Below are positions 7,001 through 62,307 of a stretch of 64,000 nt of DNA, piece after piece. Made by a program: the position numbers and the translations under genes. The DNA comes from Pseudisothecium myosuroides (lineage: Eukaryota; Streptophyta; Bryopsida; Hypnales; Lembophyllaceae). The notes beneath the pieces were generated by a model. The model was not told the DNA's origin and did no database searches. It saw nothing but the letters and a program-made list of their open reading frames with translations. The stretch covers positions 2,855,296-2,919,295 of the forward strand of contig OX637292.1 in assembly GCA_951799445.1 (NCBI GenBank), in the 5' to 3' direction. How positions within the stretch are numbered: position 1 is the first letter of the stretch; each line of letters opens with the position of its first letter.

Positions 7001-10000
7001 AAGTCCTAGCTCTGAATGATCGACGAATTGAAAGTGTATGTTACGTTACCCCTATGGAGGCACTATACAGATGCGGATTGTTTAGGACGTAATATCCATA
7101 AACAATGTTCTATCTATTTTTTTGACAATGAGTTTATTCCCTTATTGCCTGAACAGTAAAAACAGTAATTTCGTTTTGAAAGCTCATTGTCAGTTATAGG
7201 AACCTCCAAAATATACTTTTACTGTTCAAAAGTGTAAAGAGTGATTTTTCTTTTTATTGGTAATTCTTGCTAATTTCCTAGAAGTTTCTTAAAGAATTTT
7301 ATTTCAACTCCTACTGATATTGAAGTGGCACTTTGACCATTTATTTGCTTAAAGGTTAAGGAGAAATTATTTTAGTGTTGTATCTTTGACATGGTAGTCA
7401 TTGACTTCCCTTGGAATTACTTAGATATCTGGCGGTTGGCGGCATTCGATGGCAATAGATGAGGAAGGGCGGCTTTATGCATGGGGATGGAACAAGGTGA
7501 GTTTCGGGACCTTATTGGCACCATTTTCCGCATTTCCTTTGTCCTTTGTTGCTTCGGCCTTCCAATTTTATTTTATTGTCTTTACTCGAGGGAAGAGACT
7601 GAGCATGTTTTGAATTTTTTTTTTGTCTCATGAGAATTGAGATATGTGTTACAAGTAATAGCAGCATGTCGGGGTTCATCAGGATGTCGGGGTTCATCGG
7701 GTTTTGCGTTTTCAAATAGTGAGGATTATACTGAGGATTATATTGAGGATATTGAGGATTGTACTGAGAATTAGAGTAAGGAACATATGGAAAGAGACTT
7801 GAAAATTTTACGCATCAATTTGGGGTAGACACTTACTTGACTATCCGGGATTTTATTTGAGCAATTTAATGTTTCCACTGTGATGATGAAATTGCATTGA
7901 GCTTCTCTGATAAGGCGTTGTGTGGACTCTTTACAGTTTCCCAGTCAAATTTAAACTTCTTTTCAGCAATAGGGCAAACATAGATAATAGGGTGAAGATA
8001 GACTTGATTGACATGTATTTGCAGGCAGCCGATTCATAGTATCTCATCTTAAACTGTCTGCAGTTTGGCCAAGTGGGATGTGGGAATAAAGTTGATCAAA
8101 ACATTCCCCAGCTTGTTGGATGCCTTTCTCACGAGGTATGTCTATCAAGCGCTGACCCTCGTAACCTCCTTTGCTTCGCACTGATCTCCGGGATCTGCAT
8201 AGAATTATTAAGCAAAGCAGAAGGTTCCTATAAGTAAAAGGCCTGCAATGGAATATTCATAGCTATATTCTTAGTTGTCAGGCTCTTTAACTTCAGGAAA
8301 AAGTGAATTGGGGAAGATGCACCAATTGATGAACATCTAACCGTCCACTTTACCCTTGTCAAGTGGTTGAATTACCTTATGCTGCCTAAACTTCATAGAT
8401 ACCCGGGTCTAGTGCTTAAATATGTTATGTGACAGTGTTGATGTAGTCTAGATGAGAGGGTTATGTCCGGACCCTCAACTGGTTATTGCTTAATTATTCC
8501 TGCATTTGGTTCTAAAATTCTTTACACCGGCAGCTCACTCTGCTAGTTGGTTGTAAATTCGTGGCAACCAGAGAGTGGTGCAAGTGGCATGTGGGTGGCG
8601 ACATACATTGGCAACGACTCAGCGTGCAAATGTGTACTGTTGGGGTCGAGGGACAAGTGGACAGCTTGGTCATGGAGATGCTGTGGATAGGTGCACATTC
8701 AATTCCTTCCGTATTTCATCGGACTAATGATAGAATCAGAAAACACGAGGGGTTGTCAAAGTTTGCAATTTCAGCTTGTATGTTCCAAATTTGGCCCCAC
8801 ATGATTTTGAGACCCAGAATTTTCTCCCAAATGGCCTCCGTTCTTGGAGCAAAAGTCTTGAACTCCGACACACCCACTAGTTCAAGCTCAAACTGTTACA
8901 GATATTGATATCCTACTCTTTCCTTGTTTAACCAGCTCTCCTGCATAAGGGAAATCTGACCTTGGTCATATCTTAAACTCAGTTTGGGAGTTCATTGCCT
9001 GCAGATTTACACCAAAGATGGTTGAGCTTCTAAGTGCAGATGGATTTGCGTGTCGACAAATTGCATCATCACGCTCCACAAGCTTGCCAGGTATTGCCTC
9101 ATATTCATTATTGCGAATTTCAAATATTGTGCCAAAATGCGACATTCAAGTCCTGAAAATTAGGACTATCAATTGCTTAGGTGGGTTTTGAATTGCCCGC
9201 TGAAACCTTAGAGCTTTACATGCTAGGATGGATATATATCTGAGAATTCAGACGAGCCTCATACCACTTAGGTTCCTAGGCGAGAGCCCTGTCAAAACCT
9301 CAGAGCTTTGAAATCTTGGATGATTATAGATCGGAGTACTCAGATGACTGCCTCAGACTTCTCCAGTTTCAGATGGCTGTGTCTAACCAGCTCAGGTTCC
9401 TAGTTGAGAGCCTTTTTCCAAATGCACCAATTTTCACTCTGCTCACAGTTGATTGCAATGGCTTGGACATGTGATGATGAACAGCTTCGTTCTTCGTTTC
9501 TCCTTCAGAGCGGTATGCAGTGGTTCCTGATGAAACATCTGCCATGCCTTCAAGAAGGATGACCCCGGACTCTTATGTAAGACGTTCATCATTCTTCTCT
9601 CTCTAGTTCACAGTCCTTGTGACATATTTTGGATTTTCTAATGAAGAGAAAACTCAGTCCCTCTGAACGTACAATGAACATCGAGGCTTCGCCCTGAAGT
9701 GATAAGTAGGGACACCCATAATGCCAAGTCTGGTGCTCACTGTGCCACTGTCTCATTGGCTTGTCAAAAATAGGATTCTAAATCATATTGTTTGTCTCAT
9801 CCTAAGCCATTAGATCGACTTGAAAATAAATGTGGATGTTCTTGATTCGGTAGAACTACTTTACATTCTGCCCAATAATGCTCTTGAGTCTCCTGGTTGT
9901 CGAGCGTCCTCTATTCCCTAATCGCCAGTAACCCAAAATTGTTACTTTAAAATCTTTGACATAGGTTACATATTGATTAGGCATGAAGACAACCTAACTA

Positions 10001-19352: not shown

Positions 19353-19998
19353 CTAACCCCTAAATGCCCGAGGCACCAAAATCTGGTGTTTGCAAAACTT
19401 TGAAGTCAAACAAAACTCAACCAAGTTGCTATTTTTAGTAGTTTAATATTTTTGGAAAGGTCTTTGTGAAGTCTAGTTTTAGCATCAAAAATCCGATCTT
19501 GAAGATAATCAATAGTGATTTTTCTATTGAAGATTTTGTGCAAGGGTACCCATTACAATCTTGACTTCCCGTAGTGTTGAGAGCTCTTGGAAATGAGCCT
19601 CAAATACACTAGATCTTGGATCAAAAATCACATTCAAAATTCATTTAAAAAAACTATAGAGTAGATTTTAAGAAGCCATAAATTGATTGGGGTTATACAT
19701 GTTAGGCTCTTTAACCTCATATTTTTTTGGACACCATTTTTTTAGATTCAACTTGTGAAAAGAGGATTGAAAGTTTTTTGCAGTTTTAACACCCTCATGG
19801 TCAAACATTATAATCTTTCACTCTATAAGTGATATTGTTGTGTTTTCTTTTTCTATGAGATCTTTAGCATGTCTAGTTTGAATTGGTACGGTTACAATTT
19901 AAAAAAAATTGATACAACTTATCAAAATGTTGGCATTTTGTTCAATTTAGAGCAAATTCCAAGTCACTCAAAACAGGCCTTGGGCATTTAGGGGCTAA
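19353..19998. mobile_element. Diverged member of the TTAA/CCCCTAAA family
   Basis: The left end CTAACCCCTAAATGCCCGAGG and the right end GCCTTGGGCATTTAGGGGCTAA are inverted repeats of about 20 bp. The flanking tetranucleotide is CTAA on both sides (19353-19356 and 19995-19998) instead of TTAA. It is about 646 bp and non-coding. Confidence 0.6.
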
Positions 19999-23455: not shown

Positions 23456-23956
23456 ATGAGTTATAAGTGGCCATTTAGTCCTAAAAATTCTGTTAAAGAG
23501 CAAAGGGAAAAGGCTGCTCGAGAGGAGCGAGCAAGAGTGAGAGCATTAAGAAATTTAAATAAACAAGACACTAGTGAAAAGACAGAGAGTTCTATTGTCT
23601 TGCAGTCTGTGGCTGAGGAGAGTGAAATATCTATAGATCCATTAACCGCAGGAAGGGATAGTGTTCAGGATTTGTCTATTGTTACATCAGAGAATTTAGA
23701 TCAATTGGACCCTTCTCCCGATACAGGAGAACTGAGCCATTTTGACCCAATTTTTGATAGTCGGTCAGAATCATTAAGACCTATAGTTGAATTTAATCCA
23801 CAACAGAGAGCACCTTTTGTTGAATCATGTCAAAGATTTGGATTGTCTCATACATTGTGTGAGGGTATTTGTTTGTCAAATTTGCCTACTCCAGAAGGAA
23901 CTTTGAGTGGAGAACTTATAAGTGAGGAATTCAAGGTTCAAAGTCAAATAATCTAG
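23456..23956 (+). CDS. N-terminal part of a retroelement ORF, truncated
   Basis: A 166-codon open frame starts about 80 bases after the primer-binding-site-like sequence, where gag or an extra ORF1 of a gypsy element would begin. The protein opens with a basic, charged stretch (KEQREKAAREERARVRALRN) and continues acidic and Ser-rich. I see no zinc knuckle, protease or reverse transcriptase. The frame runs out where similarity to the interior of a TTAA element begins (about 23937), so the retroelement appears cut off there. Identity as retroelement protein is inferred from position only. Confidence 0.4.
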   Translation: MSYKWPFSPKNSVKEQREKAAREERARVRALRNLNKQDTSEKTESSIVLQSVAEESEISIDPLTAGRDSVQDLSIVTSENLDQLDPSPDTGELSHFDPIFDSRSESLRPIVEFNPQQRAPFVESCQRFGLSHTLCEGICLSNLPTPEGTLSGELISEEFKVQSQII

Positions 23957-24380
23957 TCCCGCAATGTGCTAAAAAAACTTGTATTTTTCACTTTCAATTC
24001 AAATATCTTGCAATCTATGCGGTCAAAATTTCTGAAATTTATTCCACACATTTTCATACTAGTTAGGTGTAAGATCCTATAGTTAGATGTGCAAAAAAAA
24101 CAATTTTCAAATTTTTTACTCTTTGCTATAGGAATGGCAGTTTTGAATATTTTTTGGTAGAAAAAAGGCCTTGGTCCTTTAGGAGTTAAAATGCAAGTAT
24201 CTTGCAATCTATGCAATCAAAGTTTCTGAAATTTCTTCCACTCATTTACATACGAGTCTTATGAAAGATCCTGCGGCTGGATATGCAAAACAAATTGTAA
24301 ATTTTTTTGCACTTCACAACAGAAATGACAGTTTTGAGTGTTTTTTGATGGGAAAAAGACCTTGGGACTTTAGGAGTTAA
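23937..24380 (+). mobile_element. Truncated TTAA element with its right end in tandem
   Basis: From about 23937 (ATCTAGTCCCGCAATGTGCT) to TTAA at 24186-24189 the sequence matches the right quarter of the full-length copy at 27288-28227. The last 190 bp then repeat in diverged form, ending at TTAA 24377-24380 with CTTTAGGAGTTAA. The left three quarters are absent. Confidence 0.75.
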
Positions 24381-26695: not shown

Positions 26696-27100
26696 TAAGG
26701 TAGTATGGCCTAAAAGCGACCATTTAAGGGCTGATCTGCCTTTTTCACAGGTTTTCTTGAACAAAAATATTTTTGGATCATTTTTCAGAGAAAGAAAAAT
26801 GGATGCAAAACGTTACACAAGTGGTTTCATATTTTTTGAACCGTTTTCGAATTACTTATAAATTTTAAAAAAAAATTGTTGTAGGCACCTATTTGTGACC
26901 CTAGGTCTTCCAAAATCTGACCACTTGCAACTTCTAAAGTGATTTGAGTAAATGACGGTCAATGATTGGCTCTTGCAATAAATAAAACTTTTCACTCAAT
27001 TCTCTCAATGGCTCGAGAGGTCCATTTAAGGACCACCTAAAATGACCTAAATATAGGGTCGATTTGAAGAGGCCGCTCGCTTTTAGAGCACACTACCTTA
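26696..27100 (-). mobile_element. MITE M, copy 1 (TA-AGGTAG family), empty site
   Basis: A 405-bp element with TAAGGTAGTATGGCCTAAAAGC at the left and GCTTTTAGAGCACACTACCTTA at the right; TA flanks both ends. It is inverted relative to the copies at 31308-32639 and 37336-37741. An intact single TTAA at 26724-26727 marks the place where copy 2 carries a 0.9-kb insertion. Confidence 0.85.
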
Positions 27101-27287: not shown

Positions 27288-28227
27288 TTAACCCCTAAAG
27301 GACCGGCATGCATTTTTTGGCCGTATAGAAATTTTGGGCAGGTCCGTGTGACTAGAGATTTCCATATTTTAAGCTGAAATTTTAATAGAAGGTAGGCGCA
27401 AGGAATATCTTTCATATGCACTAAATTTCAGGACATTTGGAAATAGGAGTCAAAAGTTATGGCCAAATATGTTACTTTTTTTCGTAACTGGGCAGTCCGG
27501 GTAACAAGAAAAATTTGGCAAATTTTTTTTTTTTTTTTTAATATTTTTTTTCTTGTAGATTATATTTTTGTCTATCTGGAAAGCTTTGATTCATTTCATT
27601 TGGATTTGTTATGAGAAAGTTATGGACATTCTTGTTTTTCGGGCAGTTAGAGCATCTTCTTGAAAAAAATAACTTGTAGGATTCATTTCTAAATGCTATT
27701 TTTGCAACTTAAAAAAAAATAAAAATTCTCATGGTTTAGTTTACTTGCTAGAACAATCTCACCATTGGGATTAGTGTATTTTAATTCCATCTAAAATATA
27801 TTAACGTTTTAGATTTTCCTTCTATCTCGTACCTACTTCTACTTAATAAATTTTTTAGGAATGATAATTAAGTTTTTTTGAATTTTTTTTTTCCCCTAGA
27901 CTCTCAACTCAATTCTCCACTATAAATATTTGAAGCACAAAACTCTATAGTGCAAAAATTTTAAGTTAAAAATGTTTAAAGTCAAAAAATCTAGTCCCGC
28001 AATGTGCTGAAATACTTGTTTTTTCCACTTTAAACACAGATATCTTGCAATCTGAGCGGTCAAAAATTCTGAAATTTTTTCCACACATTCTCATACTAGT
28101 TAGGTGTAAGATCCTACGGTTAGATGTGCAGAAAAGACATTTTTCATTTTTTTTTACTCCTTGCTATAGAAATGGCAGTTTTGATGGGTTTTTGGCAGAA
28201 AAAAGGCCTTGGGCCTTTAGGGGTTAA
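27288..28227 (+). mobile_element. TTAA element B, full length (piggyBac-like MITE)
   Basis: A 940-bp unit from TTAACCCCTAAAGGACC to GGCCTTTAGGGGTTAA. The outer TTAA pair (27288-27291 and 28224-28227) would be the target duplication and CCCCTAAAGG the terminal inverted repeat. TTAA duplication with C-rich CCC ends is the signature of piggyBac-type elements; Kolobok also duplicates TTAA. No frame over about 75 codons and no DDD/DDE transposase motif, so it is non-autonomous. Element C is the same element in the other orientation. Confidence 0.75.
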
Positions 28228-31307: not shown

Positions 31308-32639
31308 TAAGGTAGTCTGCTCTAAAAGCAACTGTCTTCTTCAAATCAACCCTATAATTAGCTCTGGAATGGATATGAGGGGGTCCTTAAATTGACCTCT
31401 TTAGCAATTGAATGAATGGAGAATAAAGTGTTATTCATTGCAAGAGCCAATCATTCTCCTTGGTTTCTCTCTGTACAAGTTGCAAGGGAATGGATTTTGG
31501 GGGACATGCGGTCACGTATAAGTGCCTACAACAGAAAGCATGGAAAATTTGTAAATAATTCAATAATGCTTAAAAAATAAATGAAATCACTTGTGTTACA
31601 TGCCACATCTATTTCTCTTTGTCTGAAAAATGAGCTAAAAATCTTCCCGGCCACAGAAGCCCATGAAAATGGCGGACTAGCCCTTAACCCCTAAAGGACC
31701 AAGGCCTTTCTTCTGCCAAAAAACATTGAAAACTGCCATTTCTATAGCAAAGAGTGAAAAAAAAATTTAATTATTTTTTTTCTACATCTAACCGTAGGAT
31801 CTTACACCTAACTAGTATGAAAAAGTGCGGAAAAAAATTCAGAATTTTTGACTGGACAGATTGCAAGATATTTGCGTTTAAAGTGGAAAAAACAAGTTTT
31901 TCAGCACATTGCGAGACTAGATTTTTCGGCTTTGAACATTTTTAACTTAAAATTTTTGCACTATAGAGTTTTGAACTTTAAATATTTATAGTGGAGAAAT
32001 GAGTTCAAAATCTAGGAAAAAAAAATTCAAAAAAACTTAATTATCATTCTTAAAAAAATTGTTAAGTAGAAGTAGGTACAAGATAGAAGGAAAATCTAAA
32101 ATATTCATATATTTTAGATGGAATTCAAATGCACTAATCCCAATGTTGAGATTGGTCTAGCAAATAAACTAAACCACACAAAAAAACAATTTGAAAAATT
32201 TGAAAAATTGCATTTAGAAATGAATCTTACAAGTTATTTTTTTCAAAAGATGCTCTAACTGCCCGAAAAACAAGAATATCCATAAATTTCTCATAGCAAA
32301 TCCAAATGAAATGAATCAAAGCTTTCCAAATTAAAAAAATATAATCTATGAGAAAAAAATATTAAAAAAAAATCAAATTTTTGCAATTTTTTTTGCTGCC
32401 CGGGTTGCCCTCTGTCCCCTGTTTTGAGCTTATTTGGTCATAACTTTAGTTCCCAGGCACCGATTTTGAAAAAAATTATATTCCCACGAAGCTAATCAGC
32501 TTTTCTACCTCCAAAAAAAGTTTCAAAAAATCAGGAGAAAATTTCAGCCCGTAGGTACCTACCTGAAAACGCATTTGTCTCCCGAAGGGACAACGGTCCT
32601 TTAGGGGTTAAACGGTTGCTTTTAGAGCAAACTATTTTA
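31308..32639 (+). mobile_element. MITE M, copy 2, split by TTAA element C
   Basis: The left part 31308-31683 (TAAGGTAGTCTGCTCTAAAAGC) and the right part 32612-32639 (ACGGTTGCTTTTAGAGCAAACTA) together equal the intact copies. After removing the insertion and one TTAA the length is 408 bp, against 405 and 406 bp for copies 1 and 3. Confidence 0.85.
31684..32611 (-). mobile_element. TTAA element C, full length, nested in MITE M
   Basis: A 928-bp element from TTAACCCCTAAAGGACC (31684) to GGTCCTTTAGGGGTTAA (32611). It has the same architecture as element B in the opposite orientation. The flanking MITE copies show a single TTAA at this point, so TTAA was duplicated on insertion. Non-coding. Confidence 0.85.
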
Positions 32640-32707: not shown

Positions 32708-33636
32708 TTAACTCCTAAAATACCAAGGCATTTTCTGGCTCCAAAACCACTGAAAACTGCCATTTCTGCTGCAATCACTCCCTAAACCAAAAAAAACTTT
32801 TTTTTTAGAATCTAACCGTAGGATCTTGTACTTAACTTGTCTCAAATCATGTGGTAAAAATTTCAAGACATTTGACCGTTCCGATTGGAAGATATCAACA
32901 TTCAAAGTTGGAAAAAAAAGTTTTTAAAACTGTTTCCTGCAATTTCAGATGACTTTGACGGCCATTTGTGGATTTTTTTTTGCACTACACAACAAAAAGT
33001 TGTGATTTTTTATGTTGAACATATGAGTTGAGAGTTGGGGAAAAAAATTTCAGAATGTCAAACCTTGATTTTCACATATAAAAAAATTGTTAAATAGAAG
33101 TAGGTCCAAAATTGAACAAAACACTAAATTGTTAATAGCTCTTAGGTGGAACTAAAACAACATAATCCCAACGGTGGGATTGTTCTTGCAAACAAATTTA
33201 ACCTTGCCAAAAAAAAAAATTGAAAAAAATTGAAAATTGCATTCAAAAATGAATTCTATAAGTTGGTTTTTTTGAAGATGCTTAAACTGCCCGAAAAACA
33301 AGATTGTCCATAACTTTCTCATTATTAGTCCAAATAGAATGAATCAAAGCTTCAAATGTAGACAAAAACATGATCTTTGAGGAAAAAAAATTTATAAAAA
33401 AAAAATCATTTTTCTGTTTTTGTTTTTTTCTGCCTGCCGAACTGCTTTTTTGCTTTAGAAGGGCATAACTTTTGCTTCCGGGCACCGATTGAAAAACAAA
33501 TTATACTTTTAGAAAGCTACTATGATTCCCTATCTTCAAAAAAAAATTCAAAAAATCAGGTTAAAATTTCAGGTCGCACGAGCCTGCCCAAAATCTGAAG
33601 TGTCCCCCGAGGGGACTTTGGTACTTTAGGGGTTAA
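32708..33636 (-). mobile_element. TTAA element D, full length
   Basis: A 929-bp element from TTAACTCCTAAAATACC (32708-) to GTACTTTAGGGGTTAA (33636). It is colinear with C and in the same orientation but more diverged. Its last TTAA (33633-33636) is also the first TTAA of element E. Confidence 0.75.
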
Positions 33637-34189
33637 TCCCTAAAGGTAAAAATTGTGGTTTTTGGCAACATAGCAATTTTAGGCAGCTCATTACAAATGG
33701 GTTTTTAAAATAAATTTGACACAACATGTGCCTGAGTACTAGCTTTAAGGCCCAACTATTTTCATAACTTTTGACTACATAGTTAAAAAGTTATTGCATG
33801 ATATGTAATTTTCATTGCTTGGCGGGCAACCTGGGCAGCTCGAAAAACTTATTTTAAAATCATTTTTTTTAAGAAATAAAAATTTGAAATTGGTTCTCTA
33901 TATTTATATATATGTGGAAAGTTTTGAATCATTCCATTTTGATTAACGGGATGAAAGTTATGAGGAGTTTTAGTTTGTAGATAGGTATCGAGTCTTTGAA
34001 AACCATACCTATCCGCAATCTAAAATTCCTTGAAACTTTCATCTCATTAATCAAAATGGAATGATTCAAAGCCTACCGGCTCACGTTCCACTAAAAAAAG
34101 GTGCCAAATATAATATTTGGGTAAGATTTTGTTTACCTTCAAAGTTGAGTCAACACCAAAATATAGTGCCTTAAGCATTTAGGGTTTAA
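33633..34189 (+). mobile_element. TTAA element E, short foldback derivative
   Basis: About 557 bp, from TTAATCCCTAAAGG to CATTTAGGGTTTAA. The interior carries an inverted repeat of about 37 bp (33923-33959 against 34033-34070). Its text, AATGGAATGATTCAAAGC, also occurs once in elements C, D and F, so E seems to be a rearranged short form. Confidence 0.6.
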
Positions 34190-36367
34190 TCCCTAACAAT
34201 CCTTGAATTAGTTTAACATTCCTAAATTGTGAAGTCATAAAGTACAATGTAGAAAAAAAATTGTGATGATTTTCAAACAAAGTTGTAAACAATGACTTGT
34301 GAATCATATTCACATAATTGGATCTATTTCTACACCAACCAATTGATATTTACTGATTAAAAATATAGAACCGAAAAATTCCTTCTAAATTGATTGTATA
34401 TTGATTATTAGTGATTTTTAAGAAAGGATACCAATTATTATTAGATACTAATTTTACACCATTCACGACACCATTGGAATTAATAATTTTCAATTTCTTG
34501 TAAAAGTTATTAGCGGTTTAATTGTTTCTTTCATTTAGTATCACCTTCCACTTTATAATTTTTTAAGATGAATGTGAGAAAAAATGTTCAAATTTTCAAA
34601 TATATATTCTCGATACATTTTTCAACAAATCAACTACTATATATAAGTTATAGTGCATTCTTTTTAAATGTTGAAAGACAAAAATTTATCTCTTAGAAGG
34701 GCTAGAAAAAGCCTATTTTCTGAAATTTATGCACATTGAACTAGTAATTAGTGGGGATATTCAATTTAAATTGGAGAGGATGTACTTGAACAAGTTAACT
34801 AAAGGATTATATAGCTAGATTTATTAAAAAATAAATATAGACGAAGATTTTAGGCTTACTATAGGGACAAGTATTTTGAAGAAGTTTTGGACCTGTAAAC
34901 ATCAAAGAACTTTAGGGATTAAGATTTGAGCTAATAATAGTAGTTATAGTTTTTAATTTTCTTAGCTAGGCCCTTAGTGGAAAGTGTCCCCAATACAACA
35001 ATCTATAAAAAAATTGGTTGGATGTACTTGGGCATTGTGAAATAACAAAAGAATGTGTGCATGAATGATTCAAAATATTCCTATTGTTCCAAAATGATCT
35101 TCCAGTTGGACAAAATGTTTGGGACTTTAGGCTAAAAATAAGTTATTTCAACCCATTTCAAGATGTAAGTATAATTTAGTGCATTCCCATCGTCCTAAAA
35201 CTTTGAGTTTAATTTGGAGCCCTTTTTAAAATGTAGTATTGAGGGTAATCCATGAGTTAGGACCAATATGAACTAAGAGTCCTTTTATTCAAGAACCAAT
35301 TTCAAAATATTAATGCATAATGGGAGTGAGTATAAGATGTTAGGAACTAAATAATGTAGGGCAATCTATTTCCAAAAAAAAATTCAGTCACAATCAAGCT
35401 TGTGTACAAATGAAGTTGATATTTTAATCATTATACAATAAAATTGTAATAGCATTTAAATGAATTGCAAAAATAGCATTTGAATATTGTTATATATGAG
35501 ATCAAAGTTAATTGATATATTATCCAAGTCATGCACAATTTCCAATGCCCACGTGATAAACACTCTGCATTGAGTTTCTACTATTATCCAAATTTATAAG
35601 CTATGACTATTTCAATTTTTGTGAAGATTTGAAAAAAAATTGAGAAAAAATCAAATCAAATCAAGCTTAACAAATATGAAATTCTCACCATTGGCATACG
35701 TACATCAAAAATAATTCTATAGATAGAAAACCAATAATACTTATTTGAGAGGATTCTAAATAGGTAGCATTTGCTATAAACATATACAAAAAACTCTCCA
35801 AAAAAAATATTGGAAGAAAAATTGTAGTCCTTCATCTAGTATTATTCATTAAAATCACCTAAGTGTCATTTTTTGCAATTTAACAATCCAAAGATTATTT
35901 TGTATTTTATTGTCTCAATATGATATCAAATATGGTTGCCTCAATCAATAAGAAATGAAAAGTTGTTATTTTGAATCAAAATATTTCACTTGAATATCCA
36001 AATATTTTTTTATACATACATATATTTAAAGAAATTCGAAGCATAAAATATCAATCCAAACCCTTGAAATGGAATGGAAAAGAATAGAACATTGTACCTA
36101 CCATTAGAGTTTGGAATGTCCTTGGTGGAAAATCCAGTACAATTGCTATTGGTTGACCCATACGTCAGTGTAAAGTCACACAAATATTACTACGGTGAAA
36201 GTTTTTTGACGGGTACAAACCATTATCACCAAGAGTAAAGTAGATCTTGCATGCATAAGATCTATGGCACTCCTACACCTTGGTACTGTACTAGCCAGTA
36301 CGTATAGTATGCCAACATATACTACTGGTAAATATTATGTTCCCCATCTACCAAAGCATCCACAATG
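34190..36367. other. AT-rich stretch without genes
   Basis: No open frame of note and no clear element termini in over 2 kb. It probably represents old, diverged repeats. Confidence 0.5.
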
Positions 36368-37335: not shown

Positions 37336-37741
37336 TAAGGTAGGAGGCTGTAAATGCGACCCTCTCCTTCAAACCGTCCCTATATTTAGCTGTAGAATGG
37401 ATTGGAGGTGATCTTTATATGGACCACTTTTGCTATTGAATGAATCAAGAAAAAATTGTTTTTTTTATTGTGAGAGCCAATCATTGGCCTTGATTTCTTG
37501 AAATCACTTTCAAAATTGCAAGGGGATGGATTTTGAGAGACCTAGTGTCACAAATAGGTACCTACTACTAAAAATTCATAACTATTTCAAAAATGCTTCA
37601 AAAAATATGAAACCACTTGTGTTACGTTGTGCATCTATTGTTCTTTCTCTAAAAAATGAGCTAAAAATATTTTGGTTCATGTGCACCTATGAAAAAGGCG
37701 GATCAGCCCTTAAAGGGTCGCTTTTTGAGCCTACTACCTTA
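37336..37741 (+). mobile_element. MITE M, copy 3, uninterrupted
   Basis: A 406-bp element running TAAGGTAGGAGGCTGTAAATGC to GCTTTTTGAGCCTACTACCTTA. It is colinear with copy 2. The single TTAA at 37710-37713 (GATCAGCCCTTAAAGGGTCG) is the unoccupied counterpart of the insertion site of element C. Confidence 0.85.
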
Positions 37742-38234: not shown

Positions 38235-39166
38235 GTAACTCCTAAAGTTCTATGACTATGTTTTCACCAAAAATGCTCAAAAAACTGCCATTTCTAGTAT
38301 GTACAAGTACCAAATTTTGGGGAAAAAAAAACATTTTTGGATATATGTAACCATAGGATCTTGTAGTATGTTGACTTAAGAACAAGTGGGAAAAATTTCA
38401 GAAATTTGCACCGCATGGATTGCAAGATATGAGCTTTTGAATTCATATAAATCTTTTTTTTGGCCTTGCAAAAAATAGGGCAGTTGTACTTTACAAGCTC
38501 ACATTTATATGAAAAAGATGTCTCTATTGGTGGTGCTTATTTGGATTCATTCTTCAAGGGAAGTTGGTTACGTGCTTGAAAAGTTTCACATCATTTGGAA
38601 TTCTACAACATAAAGAAATAAATAGGAAGTACTATAGAAAGTAATAGAGAATGCTTCAAAATACAAAATTGTTAAGAATTTAGTTATAGAATTGAAAAAT
38701 GCCAATCCCAATGGTTGCAATGTTGTAATAAACAATCTACATCCTATGATTTTATAAATATTGAATATTGAGTAAAATAAAGGATTTCAAAGTTTATTTC
38801 AGAGTAGAGAATCCATAACTACCCACAAATAAAAACTCCTCATAACTTTCATTACATTGATCAAAATAGAATGATTCAAAGCTTTCCACTTATATATAAA
38901 TCTTGGAAACCGATTTCAAATTTTTATTTCTAAAAAAAATGATTTTTAAAAATCTGGACTACCCATTTAGGAAAAAAAGTAACATATTAGGTCATAACTT
39001 TTGACTCATATTTTCAAATGTCATAAAATTTAATGCACATGAAAGATATTCCTCATCCACACCTTCTATTAAAATTTCAGCCTAGAATATGCAACTTGTC
39101 ATTCACACTAGCCTGCCTGAAATCGCTGTGTAGCCAAAAAACGCAATCTGGTCCTTTAGAGGTTAA
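38235..39166 (-). mobile_element. TTAA element F
   Basis: About 932 bp, the same length class as B, C and D. The left end is degenerate (GTAACTCCTAAAG); the right end is GGTCCTTTAGAGGTTAA. The interior matches C/D landmarks such as AAAACTGCCATTTCTAG and AATGATTCAAAGCTTTCC. It shares its right TTAA with element G. Confidence 0.65.
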
Positions 39167-39763
39167 CCCCTCAAGGACCGGGGGTGTTTGAGCATAGTCC
39201 TTGTTTTTTTGACTAGCTCTTGTAACAAGCATAATTCCTCATTTGTGTGGGATAATTTTGATGATCACCATTGTTGAAATGAAACAAGACTTATTGAGCT
39301 TTCTTATAAAAAAAAGATCAACAAAATCGGACAATTTTTGAAAAAATGCCAGCGTTGACAAGATTGATGAAAGATGTTCGGTTAGGGAGTACTTTGTATG
39401 TACACTAAAATCAAAATGTTGAAATTGGAATTCTCAAAAGTGCTCCAAAAATTCTGATTTTTTTACCACATATGTATATCATCATTATATTGATGTGTAA
39501 TTTTTTTCAAATCATTTTGAGGTGTAGAAAAAAAGATATGAGAATGTGAAGTAATGGCCCACAATGCCTTTTTCAATCTCAAAAAATTCACCAAAAATTG
39601 CACACTCAATCATTTCTCTATTGGATTGCGTCGATGGATTCAACAAAGAAAATCATCTAGGGTCTCTTTGTTGCTTACGGACTATGTGAGGTTCACATAT
39701 AAATTTTTTTACAAATGTAGTTGTAGAAGCCACGTGGTGGCCTTATGGTCCTTTAGGGGTTAA
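39163..39763 (+). mobile_element. TTAA element G (short subfamily)
   Basis: A 601-bp unit from TTAACCCCTCAAGGACC to GGTCCTTTAGGGGTTAA. The right end is preceded by GTAGAAGCCACGTGGTGGCC, almost the same as in element H. No coding capacity beyond a chance 69-codon frame. Confidence 0.65.
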
Positions 39764-40989: not shown

Positions 40990-41543
40990 TTAACCCCTAT
41001 AAGGTAACATAGCCCATTACAGACAAAAGACTCATTGTGGACACCTAGGAATGACCCCATTATGGTTTTCCTCCTGTGAATGAAATTTGGACCACAATCA
41101 ATGTCGTAGCTAACCGGAATGAAGAGATTAGTGACCACAATAGGAACTTTCAATTTTTATGTGTAAATTCACTATAGGAAGTGACTTTTTTAGGCCTTCC
41201 ATGTTAGAAAATTTTGTGATTGCTTTGGGTGAGTAAGATGAGCGTTATGGATACAATGTTTTGTTGGTTTTGGGGTAGTCTAGAGACTCTTTTAGGCCAT
41301 GATGACAATACACTTCAAAAATTCATAACAAATTCACACTTTGACGAAAAAATTTAATTTCAATTGCTCTCGCCATTTCTATCACTTGCCTTTATGTGGA
41401 AAAAAAATTAAATTTTTTTAGCAATGACATAAGGGCAAACTCCTCATTCTATCCATAATGGGTTGCTTTACCTTCTAACCCGGGTGCAAAAAAATGTGTT
41501 GGTAGAAGCCACATGGTGGCCTTGTGGTCCTTCAGGGGTTTAA
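40990..41543 (+). mobile_element. TTAA element H (short subfamily)
   Basis: About 554 bp, from TTAACCCCTATAAGG to GGTCCTTCAGGGGTTTAA. The right terminal 45 bp match element G (GTAGAAGCCACATGGTGGCC). Non-coding. Confidence 0.55.
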
Positions 41544-42947: not shown

Positions 42948-44766
42948 TTTATGCACATCTATAATTGTCACTAATTACAATTGAGCATAATTACCATTAC
43001 CAAATATAAATCGCTTTTATCGAATCTTATTGACCACTGATAGAGGATTCCAACACACTTTAGCATGCATTATTTGGGTACCTTATGAATAAGTTATGAA
43101 TTTCCATAGAATGGTCTCTAGATGTATCTAAAACTCCCAATACATGTGATGCATGTAGGTCTATAAAATAAAGACTAAAAAAATATCTTAAAAGTATAAA
43201 AAAACGGACTTTGTATTATAGACTGAGCTCTCATGTTTTGATTGTATACATCTCGTACACTAATCAATATCTTGATTTTTGTGACACATTTTGGTCCAAA
43301 TCTAAGTGTTACATTTTGAACCATATTGATTATAGGTGTGTATATCTCATTCACCAAAGACATTCCATGGTTAGACCTACATGCATCACCTTCATTGTCT
43401 AATAATGTCTTGACACATTTGTAAGCAACTTTCAAGATATTTTTTTAGTTTCACCTGCTATTCTTGCATAATTCCCATATTGAACCAATTTTTCAAGTAC
43501 CAAATCTGTTTTTTTTTCTCTATTTTTTTCTCTAAATAGAAATATTACAGATTTTTTTACTATTTTTTTTCCCCAATGTTTTCAAATTGCAAACGGATTT
43601 TTTCCCAATTCCACTGGCTACCAATGAACTAACCGGTAGTATCCCCGAACATTGTTTGTAAGAAAAAAAACATCCCTACTCACTTTTTATAGCAATTTTG
43701 TAGGGCAAGTTTTTTAAGGCATTCTAGAAGGGACCGAGTGATTTTGTGGTCGGTCAGTCACTGTACGTCCAAGAAGGAAGCCCTCGAACTCTGAGCAGAA
43801 TCGAATGTCAGTGCAGCTCGCTCGCCTATCGAGCCGTCCCGCCCGTCACTATCACAGCTATGCTCTTTCCTCGATTCGTCAGCGCTTGTATTCTCTCTGA
43901 CGTTACCTTGAGTTCAGTCGTATTCTCCCGCATTGCCGCATCCAAATTATTGGAAGTCGATTTTGTTCTGACCGTAGCTAGGAAACCTCGATCGCAGAAT
44001 GATTTAATTTGAATGTAACACTCTGCAACGGCTTGGCTGTGCTCCGGACAGTCAAATAGAGTGAGTGCACTTGCTAGGGTGATAGTACGAGAGTATTTGT
44101 AGCTGGCGTTCCTATTAGCGGCTGAAATATATGTGCCAAGGACGGGAAATTAAGACAGAATTGAGATATATTTTCAAATGCAAGCTAAGGTAGATAGGGG
44201 GATGGATTGTCGTACGTGATTTCTGTTGTCGAAGTTCGTGAGAGTGTGTGCTTCCGTTTTTGTATGGAAGATTGGAATCAAGCTCCGACCATTTGCAACT
44301 AATTTCATTGTGAGAATTGCGCTTAAGGTTTTAGTGGATTCAAGATCGCGCTCAGTTTCTGCTTCTTGAAGAGTACTCGGGAGTTTATCATTTAGTACAG
44401 CGGATTTGTAGCAGCGCGATTTTTTCAGGTCGGATTCTGTAGCAATAAGTGTCACGGATGTCACGTTCAGCCGCTGCCACGAGGATCTAATCTTTGAATT
44501 GAGAGAAAGATTGATTAGTGAATAATACTTTTTGTGAATCCGGTGGTGGAAATGGTTCTATTGATTAGGCCTGCAATAGTTTGATTCGGAGTTAGAACTG
44601 AAATTTGAGAGCGCACTGAAGTACTTAAGGTTTTAGCAGTTGTGTCATGTGTTTAGAAAATGAATCCAACAACTGTTGTTACACAAACTGTCACGAGAAG
44701 AACAGAATTGACTCCGAAGCTCTGTTTCTTGGAGACACATCCTCAAAATTAGCCTGTAAAGCTAAG
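42948..44766 (+). promoter_or_regulatory. Upstream region of the LRR kinase
   Basis: AT-rich DNA to about 43700 changes to GC-richer sequence that continues to the kinase start, so the promoter and 5' leader probably lie at 43700-44766. An 88-codon frame at 43746-44012 has no recognisable homology. It may be a chance frame or an upstream ORF in the leader. Confidence 0.4.
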
Positions 44767-47700
44767 ATGCATCTTGCGAGGGCCCTGGTCTTTCCTTTTC
44801 TGCTTGCGCTGCAAGTAATCGCGTCGAACGCAGTGACACCGGATGGACAGGCGTTGCTGGAATTCAAAGGCGGTATATCAAACGAGGATGCTGTGGTGTC
44901 AGCTGACGGCTCAGGCGTTCTTGGAGATTGGAACGAGTTGGACACGACGCCTTGCAATTGGACGGGAATCACTTGCACTGCACAAAGCTTTGTGCGCACT
45001 GTCAACTTGACATCGCAGGGACTTGAAGGAAAAATTTCTTCAAGTTTGGGAAGGTTACAACATCTGGAGGAACTCTACCTATCATTAAATCAATTCCATG
45101 GCAGCATTCCCCGGGAGCTCGGTAACTGCTCGCGCCTTGTGGTTCTGTATCTCGACAATAATTTTCTGTCAGGCACCATTCCAGCTGACCTCGGCAACCT
45201 GAAGGCGCTGGGAGACGTGTACCTCGCCTTTAACGAGCTCGAGGGCGAAATTCCTACCTCGTTAGCGGCCTCTACTAGCATATACTCATTCGATGTCGGA
45301 ACAAATTTTTTGTCCGGGCGCATTCCACACGAGCTCTTTGAGAATCCAAAGCTTACCGGCCTCTATATCAATAACAACAATTTCACTGGCGACATCACCG
45401 CAGGTGCATCTTTTTTTTTTTTTTTTCTCCCAAACTATTCCCCGAACTTCCCTGAAATCACCATAATTGTGGACTTTGTGGTTGAGTTCGATTGTATTGT
45501 TATTTTAAGTCCAATTTTTTGGTCCAGTCAATTTTTTTGAGTAGATTAGAGAATGATTAAGTGAACGTCCTCGACTGACCGCTTGTTGCCAACAAATTTA
45601 TGAGGCTTGCAATGTGTACTCGCGCTTGCAAATTTCTGATGGGAAAGAGTTGGAGCTTATATTTTTCGTATCTAATCAAAAGTTCAAACTGTAGGGACTG
45701 AGATTAGTTTCTGAATCAATGAATATTTGTCGCTGACCCTTCACCACCAACTGAAGAAAGTTATGAGGCTTGCAATATGTACTTGAGCATACAAATTCTG
45801 ATGAGAAGTAACCCCTGGATAGCAAGTTCTGCTGTAAATTGTTGACTCCGAACAAAACAAGAGAATTTCGTCGATTTTTAGCTGCATGTATATAATAACC
45901 TATTCAAAAACATCCAATTTTGGTACGTCCTCAAGACTTTCAAACTCTGAAGTAGATTGCGAGAAAGTCTTCACACTCGATGTCGTCATAATGCGTCATT
46001 TTCCATTAGGCTGGGCTGGACTCTGGCAAGGACCAACTGAACTAACAGAAATTCACCTTTCAGAGCATCGATGAAAATTTGAAGTGTGCAACGTGGATGT
46101 TTATGCCTCTGCTGAATTGCTTTTCAGGCAAGACATTTGGTCAGTCAACCATCCAAGTCCCGCCATTCAATGCTTCAGCAGCAGCATTTTTCATTACCAA
46201 ATCTGAAGACACCTTAAGAATTTTTTGCAGTAATTGACGGGATCGGGATCGTGACAAACCCGCTAGTGTCAATTGTGAGAATTATAATTAGCTGATTGAC
46301 ATTCATTATTTAAATGTTTGATTGAGGCAGATCTGGAAGCGTTGTCGAAGCTACCAAACATTACTGATGTATGGATGCAATTCAACTACTTCAGCGGCAC
46401 GTTACCACCATCGCTTGGAAACGCGACCTCGCTCAAAAGAATCCTCCTCAACAAGCAGGGTTTGGGCAACTCCAGTCTCGGGGGAACGATTCCGAAGGAG
46501 ATAGGCAAGCTCAAGAACCTTCAGATATTAGATATACGGGACAATAATTTCACTGGGAGCATTCCACCTGAGCTTGGAAGTTTAAGTAGCTTGCAATTCA
46601 TGTTTCTGTCCACGAACAAGCTCACGGGCAGCATTCCACGCGAGTTTGGCATGCTCAGGAATATGACATTGCTGCATTTGTACCACAATGAAATAACGGG
46701 GCCCATTCCAGCAGAACTCGGAGATTGCGAGCTACTGGAAGAGATTATTCTGTACGTGAATCTCTTAAACGGCACGATTCCCTCATCGCTCGGAAAATTA
46801 TCTCGGCTTAAAATTTTTGAAGTTTACAACAACTCGTTAACTGGATCCGTTCCCTCAGAGATCTTCAACTGCACATCGTTGCAGAGCTTTTATTTATCAC
46901 AGAACTCGTTCACAGGAAAGATCTCGCCTCAGATTGGGCGTCTGAAGGGGTTGCTGAGCTTGAGGGTTAGCGAGAACCAACTCTCGGGAGCTCTTCCAGA
47001 GGAGATAGGAGAACTCACGAGCTTGGTTGAGATAGTTCTCAGCTCAAACAGATTTACTGGGGTGATACCAGCAGGCTTGTCTAAAATGACAGCGTTGCAA
47101 GAGATTTTTTTCTTCGACAACCTCATGACCGGGCCCCTGCCTCCGGATATTGGTTTATTAATGAGCAACCTTACTGTCTTTGATATCCGAAACAATTCAT
47201 TCAACGGTTCGTTGCCTCAAGGTCTTTGCACGGGAGGTAAATTAGAGTTCCTGGATATTAAGGACAACATGTTCGAAGGCGCTATTCCATCGTCTCTTGC
47301 AACATGCCCTAGCCTGCTCCGCTTCCGAGCGGGGTACAACCAATTCACAAGCATCCCTGCTGGATTTGGCAACAGTACTGGGCTGAATTGGATAGAGCTC
47401 TCAAGCAACCAGCTGGAGGGTCTGTTGCCGCCTGGACTAGGTAGCAACAGTAACCTCACGAAATTAGCACTAGATGACAACAAGTTGTGGGGTGACCTGT
47501 CCCCCTTGGCATTCTCCAAGCTGCCAAACCTTGCGTTTCTTAATTTGTCATGCAACAATTTCACAGGTGAGATTCCAGCGGCAATTTCAAGCTGCAAGAG
47601 ACTTTTTATCTTGGATTTAAGCTTCAACTCTCTACATGGAATCGTGCCCGCGGAACTTGGGAACCTCACGAATTTGTTTGAGCTGAGACTGAAAGGCAAC

Positions 47701-49657
47701 AAGCTGACTGGAATGGATCTCACTATTTTTCCAGAATTAGTCAAACTGACCAGACTTAACCTTGCCCAGAATAGCTTCGATGAACCTATACCAGGCGAAA
47801 TTGGAGAATTGCCGACGCTGCAGTACCTCAACTTGAGCTATGGGGGATTCTCGGGACCGATTCCGGACAGCATTTCGAAGCTGGACCAGCTTGAGGTACT
47901 TGACCTTTCGCATAACAATCTTTCAGGTGGCATACCTTCAGGACTGGGAGGCATCCTTTCCCTGCTTACTGTGAACATTTCAGACAACAAACTGACAGGG
48001 TCGCTCCCTCCTTCGTGGGTGAAGTTTTTCCGTAAAACTCCAAACGGTTTTAAGGGAAACCCTGGGTTGTGCCTCCAGTACTCAGCCGAAAATAAATGTG
48101 TGACTGTCAGTCCGTATAGACCGCATCATAGGTATGCAAAGCTCCAAGTGGGCCCCATGATGGCAATCGTCCTGGGAAGTGCACTTCTCCTCCTCATCCT
48201 TGGAATAATAGGGTGGAGGTTTCTCCCAGGGCGACGTCATGTGCCATTAGTGTGGAAAGCGAAAGTCGAAGTCACAAGCGCGCCGGGCAACATGATCTCT
48301 TTCGACGAAATCATGGAGGCAACGCAGAACCTAAGCGATAGTTGTATAATAGGGAAAGGCGGCCATGGGACGGTCTACAAGGCGACATTGAAGTCAGGTA
48401 ATCCAATCGTAGTGAAGAAAATCGTGTCCCTGGATCGCAACACCCACATTCACAAGAGCTTCTTAACGGAGATCGAAACTATTGGGAACGCCAAGCACCG
48501 CAACCTCGTGAAACTGTTGGGATTCTGCAAGTGGGGTGAGGTAGGGCTCCTCATGTATGACTTCGTTCCCAATGGCGACCTTCATGATGTGTTGCACAAC
48601 AAGGAAAGAGGAGTGGTTCTGGACTGGGAGACGAGGCTTCGAATTGCTGAAGGCGTTGCTCATGGTTTGTCATACCTTCACCATGATTATATGCCACCTA
48701 TCGTCCACCGGGACATCAAGGCCAGCAATGTGTTGCTGGACGAGGATTTGGAGCCGCATATTTCTGACTTCGGTGTTGCGAAAGTGATGGCTATGAAGCC
48801 CAAGGACAAAAGTATGTTGTCCACGTCCACTGTCACGGGCACATACGGCTACATTGCTCCTGGTAAACTGCCTTCTCTAGTCTAGTTCGTACATGGTATT
48901 AATTGCATTCTGTATTCTTGATCTCTTCACCGTTCTAACCGTGGACTAGGAAACATGAAAGCACAGCATTATTATGAGAAAGAACATTTCAATCCATAAG
49001 AGCGGCCAGGGATATTCCATGTCAAGGTTATACTTTCACTTTTCCAGGCATAACCTCATGGATCTTGTTCAATAATGCTCAATCAATGGTCTTGGATAAG
49101 AAATTAAGAACACTGAAACGTCACAGGACAAGATTAGAAGATACCGTAACAGTAACCAATGTCGCGCTCTCTATATCCAAAGCACGGTTTCCACATCTCC
49201 TGAAATGGGCTGCACAGAGGTAATAATAGTGGGCCTAAACAATCAAAACTGTCATTACTTACCAGGATGTTTTTTCATTGTATTTGCAGAATACGGGTTT
49301 GGCACAATAGTGACACCAAAGGTAGATGTGTACTCTTATGGAGTACTCCTGTTAGAGCTTCTAACAGGGAAGCAAGCGGTTGACCCCAGTTTCGGCGATC
49401 ACATGCACATTGTTGCATGGGTTCGAGCAAGAGTGCAACAGAGTGGGTCACTCTCGCAGAGAACTGTAGGGGCAAATGTTGGAGAGGACATTTTCGACCC
49501 AAAGCTCCTCCACACCAAGAACAACGACCAGAAAGTGCACATGCTCCGCGTGCTTTGGATTGCCATGCGTTGTGCAAGGGAGACACCCGCAGACCGACCC
49601 ACTATGAGGGAAGTCGTAGAGATGTTGAGAACAAGTCGAACCGCAAGCATCGGGTGA
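44767..49657 (+). CDS. LRR receptor-like Ser/Thr kinase, LRR-XI/PEPR-like
   Basis: Single-pass plasma-membrane receptor kinase, probably a peptide receptor. Exons 44767-45403, 46331-48862 and 49290-49657 join in frame (3537 bases, 1178 aa). The start ATG is chosen because it opens a signal peptide (MHLARALVFPFLLALQVIAS); an in-frame extension to 44647 would bury it. Then come an LRR N-terminal cap ending NWTGITC, about 25 leucine-rich repeats of the plant GxIP type, and a transmembrane segment at about 822-844. The kinase domain has glycine loop GKGGHG 887-892, Lys908, HRD with Asp1007, DFG starting at 1025 and APE rebuilt across intron 2. All catalytic residues are present. The STSTVTGTYGYIAPE segment and PIVHRDIK resemble PEPR receptors. 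The ligand is unknown. Exon GC is well above the flanks. Confidence 0.9.
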
Positions 49658-51948: not shown

Positions 51949-54900
51949 CTAGAAGGCTTCTTTAACCACAGGTCGCCGGAAAAAAGGGAAGCAAGAACAT
52001 CCTAACTTTGAGACATTCTGATTGCGGCGCTGAGCTGGATCAATATTGCACACAATCCTGGGAATATGTACGAAAATATGCTTGTGGAAAGCATTGACAG
52101 CGCCTTGTATACCATCCTCGGATTCCATGGCTTTTGCTAGCTCCACTGCTTTTTCTTTGACCTGGCAAAGCACTCTGTAGTTTAAAAAAACGTGTCTGGG
52201 AGGTATACGTGCAGAAGCTGGCTACAAACCCTTTCAGTCATGCTCGACACTAGAAAATATAGCTGCAAATATGATACTTCAAATCACTCTAAATGGACAA
52301 TGATACAAATCTATGAATGCCTGTTCAACAAAAATGTTCACAATTCTCATTCTTTAGGCATATATACAAGAAAATCAGAAACATACCGTAGGGTTCAACA
52401 TAAACTCGATAGCACTGACAAGCTTGTCCAGACTGAAGTGGTTTACTGGAATAGGTGCTGGTCCTACGCCCTTCTCATGCACGCGATCACCCCAAAAGGG
52501 TTGATCTCCGAAGAAGGGAATGATTGTTGTTGGACACTGCGGACACAACAAAGAGAGCATTCTTCAATCAATTATCAAATGGTATTGACGGAACTCTTTG
52601 GCAATAAAGAAGACAACCAGCAACTGCAGTGGAGAACTGATATTCAGGTAAAGACACTCGTTGCTGACCCCAGGAAAGGCCGAGGGCAGAGCCTGATTGC
52701 GTATGTCGCCATACTGAGGTCTAGATTAAATCGAAGATGGAAAGATTCAGCTGCACCTATACGTTACATTTGAGTATACCAGACATTTAATGTGAACAGT
52801 GCTATGTTTCTCCAAGTCGTTTGACAAGGAGAATACAAAATTATAGCAACTCAGCACGTGACTTAACGTGATAAAGGCTAAAAGAACAGTGACACGAGGT
52901 AGGAGAGAAAAAGTACCGCAGCCTTGAGACCTGCAGAAGTGGTCCCTGCACCACCATGATGAATCTGGAGACATTCGAACAGGGTGTCAATCATGATACT
53001 GCTAAATATAACGATCCGAAGGCCTTGAAAAACATTGAACTGAACTCTTTAAGAGACTTTATAATCTGCAGAACTAAAAGAATGCACTCAGCGAAAAAAG
53101 AATGAGTCATACAAAGTGGAAAAAGAGTTTAGATACTGAATACGTACCACCGCAGCACACCGAGGAAACAGCCAATCGTGTGGGCAGTCCGACACAAGGT
53201 AAACATTCTCAGGTACCTCCTCCACTGTCAATAGTACAAAATCCCAAGGATGCGTCACGACATTGTAAAATTACGAGATATAATTTCTAGACAAGCAGAA
53301 ACGAAGTAATTATCAGATATCATCACTTCAAACGACAATGTTAAACAAGAGGATTTACTCCATGTCAAAGCCAGTCCTTGGGACGGAAAGAAAATGCAAA
53401 ACATTTAAAACTGAGATCAGAAATTCAGGAAAAGATATTCATAGACTGCATAGACCGTTAGCACAGCAAACACATAATATGGTCAAAAGCTTACAGTTTC
53501 CTATGCCACCCCAGCCCTTGCCAATTATTCCGCGCTGCCCAGTCTTGTTCAGTGCTTCAATAATAATATTCGTCATACCTTCTGGATCTTCTACAGGCTA
53601 CAGAGGAACAATGAGCAGATTAAATTCCACCCGCATCAGTAATGTCAAACCATCCTTCCTTGTTTGGCAATCAAACTTGTTGTCATGTGTTCATCACAAT
53701 GAATTCGAGATCAAACTTTCCAACATGTCTATGAGAAAGATAGTCGTTGAAGGCAAGGTCATTTCAACCTGACGATCAGTGTGTTGCAGCCAATAGCTTG
53801 CACAGAATCAAAAAACTTCTACTCACAGAATGAAGGCAGCCATATTTCATATATCATCAAGACATACGTAAATTAACTGGGTCAATGCCAAACACGGCAT
53901 GTTCCAAGTCGCATACAACCCCAATCAATAGGACAAACGATAAAAGAAGCTTACCAGACTTCCAAAACCAATATAAATCGGGGGTGGACCGGCTTGAAGC
54001 CACTTCACGAGGTCTTCTGGAGGTTTAAAATCCGTCGCAAGGTTTAAGAAGCAAAAGCCAACCACATCAACCAACGGTCCCCAGTCTGCAAGATAAAACA
54101 AAATCATGTAGGGAAGGCTGATAAGACAAGAAGCTTGCAAACTTATGAACAGAGAAAGCAGGTTAGAAGAAACCAAAATATAGCAGCCCGTTATCATCCT
54201 TGTCCTACAAATGATAAGGTGTCCACGGAAAGCAATAGACATCCTAGAAGAGCGCGGCGAACTCAGAAAGCTCATAAATATAGGAAGATATGAACCTTTG
54301 GGCTTCGGAACCAAGTGGGGGCTCCAGATGTAGCCTGTTGGCAATTCAGTGATAGAACCTTGAGAACCACTCAAGTAAGTGATAGGTCGTAGCTTCAGTT
54401 TCTTCTTACGCCAACTGTTGACAATTCCACGAATCCCCAACCAAATCAGCGTGTCCACCACTCCATAGGACATCTGACAGGAAAATGACAAAATTGCAAC
54501 ACATCAAGAAAAAAAAATGAGGTTTCAGACACAACAAACTCATGGTGTGAAGATAGGCGATATAGAGCTGCGTCAATGAAAGGCAATCACCGAAGATGAC
54601 TGACAAAGAAACCTGCTGTAGTCCGATCAATTCATGGGCACTTACTCGATATGCTTGTGGCTGCTTCACTCGAGCCAGGGGATGCGGAAACGCAGAAGTA
54701 GGCCTTTAAAATCCACAAAAGAACCAAAATTTGAGAAACAAACAATGGAGACACGCAAATGCAAATTGAATAGACCAACCATGTAAGGATCAATCGCTTT
54801 ATATCTCTTTCATTTGCCAAGTATAGCATCCCAAAGTGCACTAAAACTAAAGTCTTTCTACAACCAACCCAGAGAGGGCTGCATGAACCCTGGCAAGCCT

Positions 54901-61521: not shown

Positions 61522-62307
61522 CTTACAATGACTCCCCAAAGTAGTTGGCTACCCTAAAAATTGCTCTCATAAATTGAGAAATTGGAATTATGAAGTGAAA
61601 TTTAGACATGTTGTTGTACAAAACAAATTCTTCCCTCATGAGTAATTTCACTTTAAATGGACTACATTTAGACCTATTATTAATTGAATGAAATTTCTAT
61701 GAAATTTTTTTTTTTTTGTGAGAAGTCAAAATGTCCCATTTCTTTTTATAGGAAGAATGTACATCTTGACAAGAATCACATGTTACAAATTTCATGAATT
61801 TTGGATTTTTATTGATTGAGATCTAATTGACTAAAATTTGACCCCAAAATTTTGTTTTTAAAATTTTTCACTCCATAAATTGCAAAAAAATATGTTTTTG
61901 ACATATATAATCATTTTATGTTATTTTAAATTTTTGTTTTATTTTTTTTCAATTTATGGAGTGAAAAATTAAAAAACAAAATTTTGGGGTCAAATTTTAG
62001 TCAATTAGATCTCAATCAATAAAAATCCAAAATTCATGAAACTTGTAACATGTGATTCTTGTCAAGATGTACATTCTTCCTATAAAAAGAAATGGGACAT
62101 TTTGACTTCTCACAAAAAAAAAAATTCCATAGAAATTTCATTCAATTAATAATAGGTCTAAATGTGGTCCATTTAAAGTGAAATTACACATGAGGGTAGA
62201 ATTCCTTTTGTACAACAACATGTCTAAATTTCACTTCATAATTCCAATTTCTCAATTTATGAGAGCAATTTTTAGGGTGGCCAACTACTTTGGGGAGTCA
62301 CTGTAAG
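61522..62307. repeat. Long inverted repeat, arms about 360 bp
   Basis: Arms 61522-61882 and 61950-62307 are reverse complements with few differences; the loop is about 67 bases. The outer ends are CTTACAATGACTCCCC and GGGGAGTCACTGTAAG. No clear target duplication flanks them. It encodes no protein. It may be a foldback transposon or a source of a long double-stranded hairpin RNA. Confidence 0.9.

Follow-up and report, generated by a model that had tools for sequence, protein, structure and literature searches.

TTAA-targeting transposons in animals and plants

In the cabbage looper moth, the transposon piggyBac (structures 6x67/6x68) targets TTAA and moves by a mechanism outlined in passages of PMC7351741: the 3′ ends are freed, hairpins over TTAA are opened to TTAA overhangs, and these are joined to a new TTAA, leaving a scarless donor site. 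The TIRs of piggyBac elements measure 12–19 bp with CC[C/T]T at the end, according to passages of a study of Acropora corals (PMC2872659). The same passages describe coral CMITEs, TTAA elements of ~100 bp with CCC-type ends, for which an empty and a filled allele are known and which stand in rows ascribed to replication slippage; CMITE family III starts with CCCCT. A further solved transposase is that of piggyBat, from the bat Myotis lucifugus (9c0f). Kolobok, the other well-known TTAA superfamily, produces the same duplication and is characterized, in passages of PMC9587614, by 5′-RR..YY-3′ termini; its transposase is different by definition.

Land plants are assigned six TIR superfamilies (PMC9033089) and plant MITEs five (PMC12550479), and the words piggyBac and Kolobok are absent from the relevant passages of both surveys. 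Brief mentions of piggyBac in plants occur in passages of PMC10794571 and PMC10813416, and a table of fern repeats (PMC6890710) contains 1,230 PiggyBac hits that are short and total 122 kb. No description of a moss piggyBac was found among the open-access literature matches listed.

We analysed a window of 64,000 bp (C6:2855296-2919295) from the moss Pseudisothecium myosuroides, whose genome comprises 388 Mb in 222 contigs, together with a sample of 25 spaced 10-kb stretches (250 kb; 21 along contig C1, 4 elsewhere) and genome-wide searches. The element family found there resembles the moth piggyBac (as described in passages of PMC7351741) in its TTAA target, its TIRs on the 13-bp scale, its ends that are unequal inside the TIRs and the presence of Asp at all three catalytic positions. 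It differs from the moth element in low sequence identity, in ends that start with CCCC, in full-length sizes of 5.4 and 10.2 kb, in the long N-terminal extension of a 1056-aa moss frame and in the thousands of short copies. With the coral CMITEs (PMC2872659, in part) it shares short TTAA elements, CCC-type ends, an empty/filled comparison and rows of elements. Neighbours in the moss rows are of unlike sequence and have a TTAA in common. The piggyBac superfamily is already known. Relative to the open-access matches listed, what is new is a moss lineage that has open transposase frames, is present in thousands of copies and bears traces of recent movement.

An insertion in MITE M and its target duplication

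The preliminary description had reported a 928-bp unit inside a copy of the repeat MITE M, flanked by TTAA on each side. Its coordinates and ends are right, and the 928 bp correspond to an element of 920 bp, which we call E1, plus both TTAA (Table 1). Subtraction of E1 and one TTAA from the interrupted MITE M leaves 408 bp, compared with 405 and 406 bp for two uninterrupted copies in the window, which are ~73–77% alike. Since TTAA stands only once at the corresponding point of each of these two copies, the insertion of E1 duplicated the TTAA, as had been proposed. E1 has no transposase frame; its strand is given with the counterpart of the 5′ end of full-length elements placed first. MITE M itself is ~406 bp long with ends TAAGGTAG/CTACCTTA, and several diverged relatives of it lie within the window.

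Table 1. Positions of E1, MITE M and related elements in the window, and full-length elements elsewhere in the genome (contig given)
Feature	Position	Strand	Description
E1, non-autonomous piggyBac element (probable)	31688-32607	-	920 bp; TIR CCCCTAAAGGACC 13/13
Left TTAA copy of E1 target duplication	31684-31687
Right TTAA copy of E1 target duplication	32608-32611
MITE M copy interrupted by E1	31308-32639	+	1332 bp, from alignment
Uninterrupted MITE M copy	26696-27100	-	405 bp; empty-site TTAA 26724-26727, read on minus strand
Uninterrupted MITE M copy	37336-37741	+	406 bp; empty-site TTAA 37710-37713
E2, E1 family	32712-33632	-	70% to E1; TTAA both sides
E3, E1 family	27292-28223	+	80% to E1; TTAA both sides
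E4, other interior	39167-39759		TTAA both sides; one TTAA common to E5
E5, E1 family	38239-39162	-	57-64% to E1/E3; GTAA and TTAA
E6	19357-19994		TIR CCCCTAAATGCCC; CTAA both sides
E7	33637-34185		TTAA both sides; one TTAA common to E2, one to E8
E8	34190-34918		TTAA both sides; one TTAA common to E7
E9	40994-41538		right end resembles E4; TTAA and TTTA
Two truncated family copies	23906-24376		one end and TTAA each (24185 and 24376)
Element A	contig C6		10,301 bp; CCCCTAAAGGACC both ends; TTAA both edges; 583-aa open frame, PF13843 E 2.6e-80
Element B	contig C10		10,234 bp; CCCCTAAAGGACC both ends; TTAA both edges; 589-aa open frame, PF13843 E 5.3e-81
Second-lineage element	contig C2		5,406 bp; perfect 14-bp ends CCCCTCAGGGCCGG; TTAA both sides

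The window contains nine two-ended elements (E1–E9) plus several truncated copies. TTAA flanks six of these on either side, and the other three are without exact TTAA at one edge at least. When all matches to CCCCTAAA with at most one mismatch are considered, 17 of the 77 in the window are flanked by exact TTAA; by chance, 200 order-1 Markov sequences gave 0.36 on average and never more than 3. The duplication of a single TTAA is also visible inside the family: two sampled copies carry a further insertion at one common internal TTAA (L018 8771-9665 and L005 8979-9773), which is present as a single TTAA in E1 and E3.

If a Tc1/mariner-like element duplicated only the 2 bp TA and preferred T-TA-A, it would leave the same sequence as a 4-bp duplication, because TTAA is palindromic. 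This reading is nevertheless very improbable. The CTAA found at either edge of E6 indicates a duplication of 4 bp, explained without extra mutation; under a TA duplication an additional matching mutation would be needed. Moreover, only 8.8% of the TA dinucleotides of the window lie within TTAA, against 89% of the exact ends in the genome, and the transposase of the full-length elements described below belongs to PF13843.

In two rows of the window, E2-E7-E8 and E5-E4, adjoining elements have one common TTAA between them. Such a single TTAA implies that the target duplication made by one element served as the insertion site for its neighbour. This arrangement occurs in the window at 33632-34190 and 39162-39167, in the sample at L008 5275-5280 and on contig C1 (C1:3409578-3409607).

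Full-length relatives and their transposases

The preliminary description had tentatively assigned the insertion to a plant piggyBac-like lineage, an assignment to be examined through a genome search for its ends, through full-length copies with a DDE_Tnp_1_7 (PF13843) transposase and through comparison with Kolobok termini, and to be given up if most copies had no TTAA at one edge or if full-length copies encoded another transposase class. The ends, the TTAA and the PF13843 domain of full-length relatives now support this lineage. A genome-wide search with PF13843 returned 899 candidates. Scores were obtained for the best 116, every one of which lies above the curated cut-off (best E 1.7e-83); among these 116, matches are located on contigs C1-C11. 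The same profile matched none of 14 control genomes. Two of the full-length elements, A and B, have the ends of E1, TTAA at both edges and an open PF13843 frame, which runs against the second of the two grounds for giving up the assignment. They are 98.6% identical over 9.9 kb with differing flanks.

The 589-aa frame of B is similar to the solved transposases of the moth piggyBac (6x67, E 1.1e-29) and of piggyBat (9c0f, E 7.7e-28), the latter sharing PF13843 with the moss frames and differing from them in sequence and in its animal host. The three catalytic Asp of the moth protein (268, 346 and 447 in the numbering given in passages of PMC7351741) all face Asp in the alignment with this frame. 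Towards the C-terminus, pairs of Cys are visible in the frames of both moss lineages; the zinc domain PF13842 was not reported there by Pfam.

The link between E1 and the full-length elements extends beyond the TIR. Positions 1–301 of E1 match the last 298 bp of B (70%) and positions 773–920 match its first 148 bp (69%), so that the two unlike ends of E1 correspond to the two ends of a full-length element; E2 retains ~560 bp of the last part of B (68%). Because the divergence is ~30% where they align, B is a relative and not the parent of E1. E1 and its relatives are also nested within A and B, showing that the family inserted into its own full-length members. In the 314 kb formed by the window and the sample, no transposase relic was detected by tblastn (best E 1.1) or with a PF13843 profile built from 60 of 120 proteins (best E 0.79), a profile that did score five held-out proteins used as positive control.

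A palindrome at bp 15–35 of the 5′ ends of A and B lies near the position of the left-end palindrome of the moth transposon (bp 17–33; PMC7351741, in part). At these 5′ ends 4 of 5000 shuffles were as good for B and 32 of 5000 for A, and at the 3′ ends 146 and 101 of 5000, respectively. In the short copies it is weak on single ends, and a consensus of 11 ends is not significant (1,169 of 20,000 shuffles as good). The correspondence between the 5′ ends of A and B and the moth element is suggestive.

Three features of the piggyBac superfamily are found in this moss. The TTAA target duplication is seen at the empty sites, at the ends across the genome, in A and B and in both copies of the second lineage described below. 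The TIR is 13 bp long in E1, A and B, whereas the second lineage has a TIR of 14 bp; the ends read CCCCT, with CCCT from the second base, and a third sampled family (L022 2514-3089) starts with CCCTTT. PF13843 with the DDD triad is present in the full-length relatives and absent from E1 itself. From these comparisons, E1 is almost certainly a non-autonomous, internally deleted piggyBac element that duplicated a TTAA when entering MITE M and that full-length relatives likely mobilized in trans through their transposase.

By analogy with the moth piggyBac, the transposase of related full-length elements would have acted on E1 in trans, pairing both ends and cutting via hairpins that leave TTAA overhangs; these overhangs would then have been joined to another TTAA and the donor site restored. 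The parts needed by such a mechanism are present: the elements have TTAA and paired ends, and the full-length copies also have a DDD transposase.

Two other superfamilies could be proposed on account of the target alone. Kolobok has the TTAA duplication in common with piggyBac (PMC9587614, in part), but the termini here are 5′-CC..GG-3′ and not 5′-RR..YY-3′, and the full-length elements with the ends of E1 hold PF13843; a Kolobok origin is refuted for A and B and has next to no probability for E1. Sola3 elements target TTAA as well. This target is what speaks for a Sola3 assignment; the PF13843 transposase between E1-type ends speaks against it and makes it most implausible.

The PIF/Harbinger superfamily prefers TTA/TAA. 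A gene of this type in the sample (L014 3317-4628, DDE_Tnp_4) was considered as a source and rejected, as no E1-type ends surround it. This Harbinger-like gene is part of a segment with an adjoining Myb-like frame (L014 2059-4628), and a hAT-type frame lies at L010 7291-8862.

A second lineage of full-length elements is represented by the element on contig C2 (Table 1). Its 1056-aa open frame matches PF13843 (E 2.5e-84) and piggyBat (9c0f, E 3.3e-37). A copy on contig C3 differs from it by one mismatch and one gap in 5,417 bp (99.945% identity) and has TTAA on both sides in a different flank. This near-identity points to recent movement. Three further places have a PF13843 score equal to that of the second lineage among the best 116 of the 899 candidates. 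Another six places have equal PF13843 scores and a 1091-aa open frame (C1:12694405, C4:26656011, C5:9238704, C8:18677768, C9:10081009 and C10:14546048); judging from these scores, they perhaps correspond to a third lineage with near-identical copies.

Bases 1650–2120 of element B (L032 4282 to L030 252) also contain a frame of 157 aa that resembles inositol monophosphatase weakly (PF00459), its E value of 5.6e-4 falling short of the curated cut-off. This frame is possibly a captured fragment of a host gene carried by the 10-kb piggyBac.

Abundance, age and origin

The exact 13-bp end CCCCTAAAGGACC occurs 14,269 times in the genome, and 12,717 of these occurrences (89%) are directly preceded by TTAA; for the reversed control the corresponding numbers are 6 and 0. 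Among the first 100 TTAA-preceded ends listed, all on contig C1, there are 23 inward-facing neighbours less than 3 kb from each other, and 17 of these 23 are 897–943 bp apart as elements. In the sample, 22,965 of 250,000 bases (9.2%), at 38 loci, belong to relatives of the nine elements of the window. Exact TTAA is found at 17 of 24 left ends and 16 of 20 right ends. For sampled copies reached at both ends, 11 of 14 have TTAA at both, and three are without it at one or both. Together with the 89% of exact ends, this runs against the first ground for giving up the assignment, a lack of TTAA in most copies. The preliminary description is extended here by this high abundance and by the reading of E1 as a non-autonomous derivative, both of which are new.

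Other TTAA elements with different CCC-type ends are present in the sample. They include L022 2514-3089 (CCCTTTAGTGACC, 13/13), L006 5333-6303 (CCCCTCACCGCCC, 13/13) and L008 5280-5502, whose ends read CCC[A/T]GTAAGGACG. These elements appear to be more piggyBac-like families of the same genome.

The sampled copies of the family differ from the window elements by 4–31%, so that the family is not all recent. This bears on the possibility that the elements are piggyBac but foreign, that is, derived from contamination or from a recent horizontal arrival from an animal. Such an origin has in its favour that piggyBac is reported mainly from animals and that the only relative of the 589-aa frame with a named organism is a butterfly protein, with 25% identity. 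It conflicts with the divergence of the copies, with the distribution of PF13843 over contigs C1-C11 and of the ends along C1 among the matches listed, and with the moss-like genes of the window, such as a receptor-kinase gene (46318-48885) that is 87% identical to Pohlia nutans, 82% to Ceratodon purpureus and 77% to Physcomitrium patens. We therefore consider a foreign origin unlikely.

The phylogenetic position of the transposases argues in the same direction. The 589-aa frame has 107 relatives at E ≤ 1e-10 among 5.8 billion proteins, nearly all of them environmental (the best 73% identical), with no annotated protein of a moss or other plant among these 107. Transposon masking in gene sets may be responsible for the missing annotated plant relatives, although this is a guess. 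A generic piggyBac protein search (120 rows) gave few named rows, all animal. In a midpoint-rooted tree of 69 domains, prepared from 53 of the 107 relatives (after a length filter) and 17 of the 120 rows of the generic search, the three moss rows group with 39 environmental ones in one clade (100/99), which speaks against a foreign source. The tree includes 18 outside rows labelled animal, with an animal named in 6 only. With the midpoint root and 6 of 18 comparison rows animal-named, the tree is compatible with an old horizontal origin of the clade as well as with vertical descent.

From the sequence comparisons as a whole, it is probable that a piggyBac clade native to plants, comprising at least two lineages with open transposase frames and in very recent or ongoing movement, has filled this moss genome with TTAA-targeted miniatures (more than 12,000 exact ends; ~9% of the 250-kb sample). 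If true, mosses would be a natural host of a superfamily left out by land-plant transposon surveys. One plant genome combines the ends and their target with empty sites, with transposase frames and with copies that are nearly identical, and this combination makes an active plant piggyBac directly testable. It would also offer plant-derived pairs of transposase and ends for a tool currently borrowed from the moth. Annotation with the usual plant superfamilies alone would miss or misfile ~9% of the sampled sequence.

The remainder of the window contains several other features. The receptor-kinase gene belongs to a segment encoding an LRR receptor kinase on the plus strand (44647-49657). A gene with RCC1 repeats over several exons lies at 4404-8724 (PF00415 in five frames, E 1.9e-9 to 1.2e-15), and a frame at 53925-57502 has a weak match, just under the cut-off, to glycosyltransferase family 28 (PF03033); we presume that it could encode a sterol glucosyltransferase. 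Finally, a large inverted repeat is located at 61526-62303, with mirrored frames at 61526-61696 and 62133-62303.
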